Source: Chloroflexia bacterium SDU3-3
GTDB lineage: Bacteria; Chloroflexota; Chloroflexia; Chloroflexales; Roseiflexaceae
DNA length: 64,000 bases
Direction: 5' to 3'
Assembly (NCBI GenBank): GCA_009268125.1
Contig: WBOU01000003.1
Span: 1 to 64,000, forward strand
Made by a program: the position numbers and the translations under genes
Part shown: positions 15,278 through 19,107 of the stretch, piece after piece
Numbering within the stretch: the first letter of the stretch is position 1
How the letters are laid out: each line of letters starts with the position of its first letter
Notes under the pieces: model-generated
The model's database searches: none
What the model was told of the DNA's origin: nothing
Seen by the model: only the letters and a program-made list of their open reading frames with translations

Positions 15278-15403
15278 CACGCCGGAAGCCGATTGCAGCA
15301 CGCCGGAAGCCGATTGCGTCACGCCGGAAGCCGATTGCGTCACGCCGGAAGCCGATTGCGTCACGCCGGAAGCCGATTGCGTCACGCCGGAAGCCGATTG
15401 CGT
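15278..15403 (+). repeat. 21 bp tandem array B, six copies
   Basis: Six head-to-tail 21 bp units; the first differs by two bases and the rest are identical. The unit contains CGCCGGAAGC, the same 10 bp core as array A, in otherwise different sequence. No spacers. Confidence 0.97.
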
Positions 15404-15450
15404 CGCGCGGCCTCGCCCATGCGGCGAAGGTGCACGCATATGCCTGCTGG
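15404..15450 (+). repeat. R1 fragment abutting array B
   Basis: GCCCATGCGGCGAAGGTG begins 12 bp after the last 21 bp unit and is followed by a CATATG/GGCCATATG box. This is the same module that abuts array D at 60.8 kb. Confidence 0.85.
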
Positions 15451-15768: not shown

Positions 15769-16944
15769 ATGCGGATACTTGTCGCGCTCGACTACTACTA
15801 CCCACACTGGACGGGCCTGACCGCCTACGCCAAACGCATCGCCGAGGGCCTGGCCCAGCGCGGCCACTCGGTCACGGTCCTGGCATCCCAGCACGAGTCC
15901 TACCTGCCCATCCAGGAGACGATCAACAACGTGCGCGTGGTGCGCGTGCCGATCGCCGGGCGCTTCAGCCGGGGCGTGATCATGCCGCTCTTCCCGATCA
16001 TCGCCGCCCAGCTGGTGCGCGAGACCGACGTCATCCACATCCACACCCCCATGCCCGAGACGATCATCCTCACCGCGCTGGGGCGGCTGTTCAGCAAGCC
16101 CTCGCTTGTCACCCACCAGGGCGATGTGGTGATGCCCAAGGGCTTCAAGAACCAGATCATCCAGCAGGGCGTGCGCGTGCTCTCGCTGGGCCTGCATGTC
16201 TCCAACTATGTGGTGGTGCACAACGCCGACTATGGCCGCCACTCGACCTTCCTGCAGCAGTTCAAGCACAAGCTGGGCGCGATCTACCCGCCTGTCATCC
16301 TGCCCGAGCCAGATCTTGAGGCGATCGTGCAGAAGAAGCGCGATCTAGGGATCGAGGACAAGAAGATCATCGGCTTCGCGGGCCGCTTCGTCGAGGAGAA
16401 GGGCTTCGACATCCTGCTCCAGGCCATGCCGCTGGTCAAGCAGGCCGTGCCCGATGTGCACTTCGTGTTCGCGGGCGAGATCAACGTGGTGTACGAGAAG
16501 TTCTACGAGTCCTGCCACCCCATGATCGAGGCCAACAAGGACATCCTCACCCCACTGGGGCTGCTGCACAGCCCGCAGGATCTGGCCAACTTCTACGCCA
16601 TGTGCGACATCTTCGCGCTGCCCTCGCGCACCGACTGCTTCCCGAGCGTGCAGATCGAGGCCATGGTCTGCGGCACGCCCAGCGTCACCACCGACATCCC
16701 CGGCGCACGCGAGGCCGTGCAGGTGACCGGGATGGGCAAGCTGGTGCCGCCGCTCGACCCGCAGGCCCTGGCCGAGGGCCTGATCCACATGGTCTCCGAC
16801 CCGACCGTCTACAAGACCCGCTGGGAGAAGGCCCGCCAGGTGTTCGACCCCGCCGCGTCGATCGAGGCCTACGAGCACATCCTGCAGCAGCTCGACCAGC
16901 GCGTGCCGATCATGCCGCTGGCCGAGGTCGAGTCGGCGCACTAG
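15769..16944 (+). CDS. Family-4 glycosyltransferase
   Basis: A 391-residue GT-B enzyme. Features: N-terminal DYYYPHWTGLTAYAKRIAEG, then DVIHIHTPMPE in the acceptor domain, then the donor domain with GFAGRFVEEKGFDILLQA and the E-x7-E-type motif PSRTDCFPSVQIEAMVCGTP. It resembles mannosyltransferase-like GT4 enzymes, but the acceptor cannot be read from sequence. GAAAGGG precedes the ATG. The next gene starts 30 bp downstream. Confidence 0.9.
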   Translation: MRILVALDYYYPHWTGLTAYAKRIAEGLAQRGHSVTVLASQHESYLPIQETINNVRVVRVPIAGRFSRGVIMPLFPIIAAQLVRETDVIHIHTPMPETIILTALGRLFSKPSLVTHQGDVVMPKGFKNQIIQQGVRVLSLGLHVSNYVVVHNADYGRHSTFLQQFKHKLGAIYPPVILPEPDLEAIVQKKRDLGIEDKKIIGFAGRFVEEKGFDILLQAMPLVKQAVPDVHFVFAGEINVVYEKFYESCHPMIEANKDILTPLGLLHSPQDLANFYAMCDIFALPSRTDCFPSVQIEAMVCGTPSVTTDIPGAREAVQVTGMGKLVPPLDPQALAEGLIHMVSDPTVYKTRWEKARQVFDPAASIEAYEHILQQLDQRVPIMPLAEVESAH

Positions 16945-16974
16945 GCTAGCATCTACAGCGGAGAAAGCGCTACC

Positions 16975-19107
16975 GTGAGCGAGCAGAGCACCCTGACCCA
17001 GGCATTCAGCACCTACGGCGACGAGCTCTACCAGGCCGCGCTGCTGCTCGCCCCCAGCCCCCGGCGGGCCGAGGCGCTGCTGCTGCGCGCCGCGCGCTCG
17101 CTGGCCGCCGCGCCGCCCGCCCAGCTCGATCTGCCAGGGGCGCTCGCGGCGCTGCTGGCCGCCCTGCCCGAGGCCGAGGCCAGCGCCGCACCCGGCGGCC
17201 CCTGGGCCGCCAGCCCGGCCCCGCCGCTGGCCGCGCTGGCGGCGCTGCCCGCCGCCCAGCGGCTGGCGCTCGACATGGCGCTGCGCTACGACTACCAGCC
17301 CGCCCAGGTGGCCGCGCTGTTCGGGGGCGACCGGCAGCGCGCCGAGCAGGCGCTCGCCAGCGCGCTGCTGGCCGTCGCCCCGGCGGCGCTGCCCGATCTG
17401 CCCGAGCCGCTGCGCCAGCTGGATGCCGCCCCCGAGACATGCCAGCTGGTGCGCCGCACCCTGGCCGCCCGCACCGACACCTCGTTCAACGCCCACATAC
17501 GCGGCCACCTGGCCAGCTGCGCCAGCTGCCGCGCCGCCGAGCAGGCCATCGGCCAGGTGCGCGCGCTGGCCGAGCAGGCCATGCGCCGAGCCATGCGCGG
17601 CACGCCCATGCCCGCCCGCCTGGCCGAGCAGATCCAGGCGATCATCGCGCCCGCGCCGCGCGCGGCCAGGGCCGCCCAGCTGCTGCGCCAGCCGATCGTG
17701 ATGCAGGGCCTGCTGCTGCTGGCCGTGCTGGGCCTGATGGCCGCGCTCATCCTGCCCAGGCCGCAGCAGCAGGCCATGGGCAGCACCAGCATCACCCCGC
17801 GCCAGCTGATCGAGCAGGCCCGCGCCACGCTCTACACCGCGCCCGAGGGCCAGCCCACGTGGCATAGCCGCTACGAGATGCGCTGGGATTTCAGCGACAA
17901 GCTCTACGCCAATCTGGTCGGCGATCTCTGGCTCGACCAGGGCGAGCAGCGCTACCGCGCCCAGCTGACCCACGCGGCTGGCGGCGCGCCCTACGAGCTG
18001 CTGCTGGCGCGCGGCGAGGACACCTGGTACAGCGCCACGCCCACCTACGGGCAGTCGATCTACGGCCTGCTCTACCCCGCCGACACGCCCAACATTCAGT
18101 TCAAGCTGCCCGAGGCCCAGCGCGGCCCGTTCCTGCAGGCCCGGCTGGCCGATGGCGCGTGGGGCTTGGCCCAGCGCTACCTTGAGCTGGGGCTGCAAGC
18201 CAAGTCGCTGCGCAGCTGGGGCCGCCAGCGCGGCGCCGACGGCAGCGAGCAGATCATCATCGGCTTCGAGGCGGCCTGCCCCACCAGCCTGAGCATGCCC
18301 CAGGAGCACCCGCCCACCGTCACCATCCTGCTGGCTATCGACGAGGCCAGCGGGCGGCTGCGCGAGATCCGCGAGCTGACGCCGCAGGGCGACGGCCAGC
18401 TGGCCAGCCGCACCATGTGGCGGCTCACCGCCGGGGAGCCGATCCCCGAAGAGCAGACCGCCACGCTGTTCAGCATCCAGCTGGCCTACAATGGCACCGG
18501 GTCGTTTGCCCGCGCCGAAAACATAGCGGATCTATACGTGCCGACCATCCCCTTCCTGATCGACTGGGTGGAGATGCGGGCGCAGATGCTGGTGCGAGAG
18601 GATGACCAGCGGGGCTGGATGCTGCCCGCCAGCCCCCCGGCAGGCGTCGACCGCGCCATGATGGTGGAGCAGGTCGATGGCAAGCGTGCGGCGATCTATC
18701 TTGGCCCCCAGAAGCGGCTGGTGATCTACAGCCCCACCTTCAACCCTGGCCGCACCATCGCCTGGCTGGCGGCGGCGCTCTCCTCGCAGTACGATCCATC
18801 CACGCCCATGCTGCCCGGCATCCCAGCGCCCGTAGACGACGACGCGGCCATGATCTTCTCCAACCTCTCATCTCAGCCCATGGAGTTCCGCCACAGCGAC
18901 AGCGCGCTGATCGCGATCAAGCCCGGCCTGCACCAACACTATGGCACGCAGGTGGTGTGGAACACCGGCCAGCGGTCGCAGCAGCACGTCACCATCATCG
19001 AGTCGTTTGGCTTCAGCTACGAGGAGCTGCAGCAGGTGGTGGATAGCCTGGCCCCCTTCAACCAGCAGACCTACCGAGGCACCGCCGACCTCTTCACCAC
19101 GCCATAA
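16975..19107 (+). CDS. Sigma-like / anti-sigma zinc-finger / membrane fusion protein
   Basis: A 710-residue protein starting at GTG. Residues about 8-135 look like a degenerate ECF sigma factor: a region-2-like helix, then a region-4-like stretch with LAALPAAQRLALDMALRYDY and QPAQVAALFGG. Residues 170-190 hold an anti-sigma zinc finger (His178, Cys182, Cys185 in HLASCASC). One membrane helix (241-260) follows, then a roughly 440-residue, probably extracytoplasmic domain that may be lipoprotein-carrier-like. Such a chain could couple envelope sensing to transcription, but the sigma part may be non-functional. It lies 30 bp after a glycosyltransferase and ends at a strong terminator. Confidence 0.7.
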   Translation: MSEQSTLTQAFSTYGDELYQAALLLAPSPRRAEALLLRAARSLAAAPPAQLDLPGALAALLAALPEAEASAAPGGPWAASPAPPLAALAALPAAQRLALDMALRYDYQPAQVAALFGGDRQRAEQALASALLAVAPAALPDLPEPLRQLDAAPETCQLVRRTLAARTDTSFNAHIRGHLASCASCRAAEQAIGQVRALAEQAMRRAMRGTPMPARLAEQIQAIIAPAPRAARAAQLLRQPIVMQGLLLLAVLGLMAALILPRPQQQAMGSTSITPRQLIEQARATLYTAPEGQPTWHSRYEMRWDFSDKLYANLVGDLWLDQGEQRYRAQLTHAAGGAPYELLLARGEDTWYSATPTYGQSIYGLLYPADTPNIQFKLPEAQRGPFLQARLADGAWGLAQRYLELGLQAKSLRSWGRQRGADGSEQIIIGFEAACPTSLSMPQEHPPTVTILLAIDEASGRLREIRELTPQGDGQLASRTMWRLTAGEPIPEEQTATLFSIQLAYNGTGSFARAENIADLYVPTIPFLIDWVEMRAQMLVREDDQRGWMLPASPPAGVDRAMMVEQVDGKRAAIYLGPQKRLVIYSPTFNPGRTIAWLAAALSSQYDPSTPMLPGIPAPVDDDAAMIFSNLSSQPMEFRHSDSALIAIKPGLHQHYGTQVVWNTGQRSQQHVTIIESFGFSYEELQQVVDSLAPFNQQTYRGTADLFTTP

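Follow-up and report, generated by a model that had tools for sequence, protein, structure and literature searches.

Sigma and anti-sigma factors are textbook partner-release switches, and a gene that joins both in one polypeptide raises the question of what its sigma-like part does. Such a gene lies in a 64,000-nucleotide stretch of Chloroflexia bacterium SDU3-3 DNA (contig WBOU01000003.1, positions 1 to 64,000), here called the window. The original prediction placed a sigma-like region, an anti-sigma domain, a membrane helix and an outer domain in a single 710-residue chain, an architecture that our analysis confirmed, and offered two readings of it: a self-inhibited sigma factor needing proteolysis, or a sigma mimic that sequesters core polymerase. 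Our results argue against both and point, tentatively, to a gated anti-sigma factor carrying a disarmed sigma domain in cis. The features of the gene are listed below.

16975..19107, + strand: whole gene, 710 aa, stop included; GTG start; one open frame in relatives as well
16960..16967, + strand: ribosome-binding-site-like GGAGAAAG before the GTG start, from the sequence
16975..17184, + strand: degenerate sigma region 2, residues 1–70 (model pLDDT ~90; 5uxx, 5wuq and PhyR matches; alignment to 18 ECFs)
17221..17388, + strand: degenerate sigma region 4, residues 83–138, with the invariant R96 (Pfam, PDB profile, alignment and model)
17395..17610, + strand: class I anti-sigma domain, residues 141–212 (weak RsrA hit at 166–204; zf-HC2 in 9 of 25 N-termini; invariant ligands)
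17440..17442, + strand: zinc ligand C156
17506..17529, + strand: zinc motif H178-x3-C182-x2-C185
17695..17751, + strand: single membrane helix, residues 241–259, with an arginine-rich flank on its N side (hydropathy; helix in the model)
17785..18519, + strand: LolA-like or RseB N-domain-like outer domain, residues 271–515 (predicted model and fold searches)
18607..19074, + strand: RseB C-domain-like outer domain, residues 545–700 (the RseB fold match spans 270–696)

A single-sequence Pfam scan of the whole 710-residue protein returned no family, and Pfam and NCBIfam searches with its parts gave only weak matches (Sigma70_r4_2, E 0.04). The sigma70-ECF model scored 12.1 bits over residues 1–142, below its curated cut-off of 42.9. 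When a profile built from 25 N-termini of the family was compared with the PDB sequences, 22 matches were obtained at E ≤ 10 (best E 1.4e-4): 21 to sigma factors or to the sigma-like PhyR proteins, and the last to PDS5B. These matches strongly support homology between residues 1–140 and ECF sigma factors, in agreement with the earlier description of this region as degenerate and ECF-like.

In the predicted structure (mean pLDDT 81 and pTM 0.61 at full length; pLDDT 91 and pTM 0.84 for residues 1–236 alone), sigma 2 and sigma 4 folds are joined by a linker, as the PDB profile also indicates. Residues 1–142 superposed on RpoE-NepR with a VIA Z of 12.4 over 141 residues at 2.7 Å, a score to be read against chance values of up to ~13 that are possible for helical models. 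The rows after RpoE-NepR were PhyR, SigG1 and SigW-RsiW, and the first 38 were all sigma or PhyR; a Foldseek search with the N-terminal model gave no match at E ≤ 0.001 (best 0.13). The model differed from RNAP-bound SigH by ~27 Å rmsd, indicating that the two sigma domains are placed differently there. The fold predicted for residues 1–142 resembles that of a closed ECF sigma, as seen when an anti-sigma is bound; this closed arrangement may be an AlphaFold default. The original prediction had staked its case on residues 1–140 folding as sigma regions 2 and 4, and this is the fold that the model predicts.

To what extent the domain keeps the contact residues of a working sigma factor was assessed against 18 true Chloroflexota ECFs, 12 from this genome and six from other Chloroflexota, in an alignment with 25 family rows that was anchored on the LPxxQR motif, A32 and the helix pattern and that, given such divergent proteins, carries some error. 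The region 2.2 glutamine (Gln-37) is present in 16 of the 18 ECFs versus one of the 25 family rows, and the acidic residue at position 34 in 17/18 versus 2/25. An aromatic residue at position 40 occurs in 15/18 ECFs, and the region 2.3/2.4 aromatic residue (Trp/Phe-59) in all 18; neither is found in any family row. The mean charge of the recognition-helix segment is +2.61 in the ECFs versus −0.64 in the family, with Lys plus Arg counts of 3.78 versus 1.52 (p 1.5e-7, kinship between rows being ignored), and the sigma2-sigma4 span is 33–49 residues in the ECFs versus 46–70 in the family. In sigma70 proteins, contacts to core polymerase and to promoter DNA are made by the positions lost here. A Roseiflexus-type branch (L031:10007-12151, L032, L033 and L034) has, in addition, insertions that disrupt the region 4 helix-turn-helix, so that the usual pattern is gone; region 4 decay is stronger here than in the rest of the family. 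Together, the alignments strongly support a family-wide loss of core- and promoter-contact residues.

These losses bear directly on the proposed sigma mimic, which would sequester core RNA polymerase at the membrane. A predicted sigma fold and a membrane anchor are what such a trap would need, but so are the region 2.2 core-binding residues, and the core-contact helix 2.2 lacks the conserved Gln and acidic residues across the family. The model, moreover, is in the closed, not the RNAP-bound, form. We consider this reading very improbable.

The adjoining anti-sigma domain has, by comparison with its own family, an intact metal site. Conservation was counted in alignment A1 (25 rows) and in alignment A2 (26 rows; of the 31 loci of the contig scan, L039, L040, L049, L051, L060 and L061 were left out as masked, truncated or broken in frame), which are not independent because the species sampled are largely the same; alignment A5 excludes L044 too. 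The divergent relatives L027, L028, L029 and L030 and the paralog L072 do not enter the counts. The original prediction named a zinc finger of His178, Cys182 and Cys185, all of which proved invariant (25/25 in A1, 26/26 in A2). The equally invariant C156, which it did not list, completes a set of four ligands, giving the Hx3Cx2C motif plus upstream ligand of a class I ZAS domain. R96, in sigma region 4, and R176 are invariant in 26/26 rows of A2. The protein contains one hydrophobic segment, at ~241–259 (Kyte-Doolittle mean 2.57 over 19 residues).

We next consider selection along the chain. The dN/dS ratio was below 1 for both sigma 2 (0.08–0.65) and sigma 4 (0–0.56) in 18/18 pairs; it was 0.08–0.26 in the anti-sigma domain and 0.05–0.38 in the LolA-like domain, where it was lowest in most pairs. 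Within the same genera, residues 1–140 gave 0.092–0.195 (4 pairs) versus 0.029–0.074 for active ECFs (6 comparisons), about two to three times as high. These ratios strongly support purifying selection on the sigma domain, looser than on a working sigma factor but without free decay. Mean pairwise identity was 49.7% in the LolA-like domain, 49.4% in the membrane helix, 43.3% in the anti-sigma domain, 39.8% in sigma 4 and 37.6% in sigma 2, and by this measure the LolA-like domain together with the membrane helix is the most conserved part.

Purifying selection on the sigma domain would also suit the self-inhibited sigma factor of the original prediction, that is, an active, membrane-tethered sigma of the ECF52 or IutY type from which cleavage near the membrane would free residues 1–140 to join core RNAP and activate a regulon. 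The domain order is that of ECF52 and IutY (PMC8999054, PMC5411451), and there is an RseP-family gene (192.3 bits, scored with its neighbors; cut-off 147.55). Such a protein would, however, require the core-binding and promoter-reading residues, and the region 2.2 Gln and acidic residues, the region 2.3/2.4 aromatic residues and the recognition-helix charge are gone family-wide; the region 4 helix-turn-helix is broken by insertions in the Roseiflexus-type branch, and dN/dS exceeds that of active ECFs two- to threefold. The residue comparison with the 18 Chloroflexota ECFs and the dN/dS comparison with ECFs of the same genera lowered our estimate of this reading, and we regard an active tethered sigma as distinctly unlikely.

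On the far side of the membrane lies an outer part of ~440 residues. LolA-type folds are common. In a Foldseek search with the outer part, the nine best rows were RseB/MucB structures (E 5.5e-8 to 1.7e-5). The RseB structure 2v42 covers both outer domains (270–696) with a Z of 12.5 over 261 residues at 5.3 Å, other rows lying within 1 Z, and the model shows the LolA-like N-domain followed by a small C-domain fold that characterizes RseB/MucB. The predicted structure thus strongly supports an RseB/MucB-like fold for residues 270–696. An hhalign comparison of the outer domain with E. coli RseB revealed no sequence similarity (probability 0.4% versus 0.2 for the LepA control), Pfam scans gave no RseB match in the window protein and, for 26 outer domains, nothing but a single chance hit to Wzi (E 0.084), and the outer-domain profile retrieved only UNC5A, at E 0.45, from the PDB sequences. 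We therefore use "RseB-like" as a statement about fold, because sequence comparison gives no support for descent shared with E. coli RseB. Pfam detected no carbohydrate module in the outer domain, and the fold search gives RseB/LolA; a module from a family outside Pfam is possible. MucB/RseB is described as binding lipid through its N-domain and shielding the anti-sigma factor from cleavage (PMC7400510). The enzyme shielded against is the site-1 protease.

Matches to the protein at E ≤ 1e-3 were found in 30/60 related genomes, most of them near full length, with partial and divergent ones included. A profile of the outer domain matched 28 of 400 Chloroflexota genomes, all from the window's own order, and in all 28 the match lay in an open frame of at least 642 aa, so the fusion is old, the outer domain never being seen alone. 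Judged from these searches, the family is restricted to Chloroflexales. A scan of genome contigs gave 31 loci, all but one on contigs whose titles name Chloroflexota or one of its orders or genera; the remaining one (L049) is on a contig titled Candidatus Gracilibacteria and is probably a misbinned Chloroflexales contig. The full-protein profile also matched free-standing ECFs (~180–200 aa) over positions 5–140 in many Chloroflexota. In the genome G408, the N-terminal profile aligned colinearly with two adjacent genes, a free-standing ECF gene and the anti-sigma gene that follows it, which one in-frame TGA separates; a fusion of this kind could arise from a gene pair so arranged. SDU3-3 itself encodes a paralog of 655 aa (L072:4709-6673, G000:C10) with a sigma-like, a membrane and an outer domain and without any Hx3Cx2C motif; its relatives (families f1 and f2) occur in 11/60 related genomes, SDU3-3 included. 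The zinc ligands are absent from both paralogs, L072 and L074, and L072 indicates that the wider group can do without zinc.

The loss of the zinc ligands in these paralogs would suit a reading in which the function resides in the outer domain, perhaps as a membrane-anchored carrier of lipids or lipoproteins, and the cytoplasmic sigma/anti-sigma module survives as a structural leftover. The superior conservation of the LolA-like domain and membrane helix, and the lowest dN/dS of the former in most pairs, agree with this. A leftover would nevertheless be hard to reconcile with zinc ligands, R96 and R176 that are invariant in 26/26 rows of A2, with sigma dN/dS below 1 in every pair, or with an outer domain that is preceded by a long N-terminal part in each of the 28 genomes. 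The dN/dS values and the invariant zinc ligands lowered our estimate of a dead relic, which is unlikely but still a serious contender.

A conserved operon partner was sought in the surroundings of the gene: among recurring clusters in 27/31 related loci and the window, annotated through the proteins of seven relatives, there was no common ECF neighbor. Upstream of the gene, 17 loci have an AAA MoxR ATPase cluster and 4 have a PKD/peptidase-like ORF, while the window has a glycosyltransferase. Antisense to the gene runs an open frame of 654 codons (16345-18309, −), likely a high-GC shadow. At 15278-15408 of the window, a 21-base unit is repeated in tandem, with 6.2 copies at 97% matches; the array lies within short ORFs in which TPEADCV recurs.

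In content, the chain unites what E. coli encodes in the three genes rpoE, rseA and rseB, namely a sigma fold, a zinc anti-sigma domain, a membrane helix and an RseB/LolA-like outer domain, and both the domain order and the intact zinc ligands are strongly supported. Since promoter reading is lost, the zinc site is intact and the model is in the anti-sigma-bound form, the sigma part is most simply read as a ligand of the anti-sigma domain: a pseudo-sigma, we infer, kept as a built-in ligand rather than a releasable sigma. The protein could then be a single-chain envelope sensor with a pseudo-sigma in cis, in effect not a sigma factor but a gated anti-sigma factor; we hold this reading tentatively and rate it a little short of even. 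In such a sensor, the pseudo-sigma would occupy the anti-sigma domain in cis; the outer domain would bind its ligand, probably lipophilic, or sense an envelope signal; ligand binding would loosen the contact between the two cytoplasmic domains, or the chain would be cut near the membrane, an RseP-family gene being present; and the freed anti-sigma domain would presumably bind or let go of a genuine ECF sigma from elsewhere. No candidate sigma partner in trans was seen beside the gene. More doubtful, though possible, is the fuller account in which an rpoE-rseA-rseB-like gene fusion, with its sigma disarmed, left a dead ECF sigma attached to its former anti-sigma as a cis-acting gate that an RseB-like lipid sensor controls from outside.

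The original prediction took sigma and anti-sigma factors to be normally separate. This holds with known exceptions, as ECF48, ECF52, ECF53 and IutY are described as fusions (PMC8999054, PMC5411451), and the architecture is therefore not new in kind. ECF52 (SCO4117), ECF48 and ECF53 of Actinobacteria share with the window protein sigma 2 and 4, a zinc anti-sigma domain, a membrane helix and an outer domain in the same order (PMC8999054, PMC5826349); the ECF52-type combination of sigma fold, zinc anti-sigma domain and membrane helix in one chain is present here. The sigma domain of these proteins is reported to match TIGR02937 and SCO4117 is a genetic activator (PMC5826349), whereas the domain here scores far below that model and has lost its contact residues; the ECF52-type outer domain is proline-rich and carbohydrate-binding, unlike the RseB/LolA-like one here. 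IutY (ECF243, Pseudomonas putida) likewise combines sigma and anti-sigma in a single membrane-bound polypeptide, but it is released by Prc/RseP and active, and its outer part is a cell-surface-signaling anti-sigma domain without RseB likeness (PMC5411451). An RseB-like domain fused to sigma/anti-sigma, or any such fusion in Chloroflexales, was not found in the open-licence PMC literature searched, which includes PMC7406223 and PMC8103513; nor did this literature yield the disarmed sigma or the Chloroflexales family.

RpoE-RseA-RseB and AlgU-MucA-MucB offer the same elements, a sigma fold, a class I anti-sigma, a membrane helix and a two-domain RseB-type sensor, but as three proteins, the sigma being active and the anti-sigma free of zinc, where the window protein has one chain, zinc ligands and a pseudo-sigma. 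If the gated anti-sigma reading is true, it would give a one-protein system for studying transmembrane signaling by an RseB-like outer domain in bacteria that, to our knowledge, make no LPS. A chain whose disarmed sigma stays under selection beside an intact anti-sigma domain would be a case of a sigma turned from effector into regulator. PhyR, which ranks near the top in both the fold and the sequence comparisons, has a sigma fold that acts as an anti-anti-sigma by binding an anti-sigma factor; its partner NepR is a separate protein and its gate a receiver domain, whereas here the partner domain lies within the same chain. If the sigma part is indeed a cis-acting gate, the protein would carry out within one molecule what PhyR and NepR do by partner switching.
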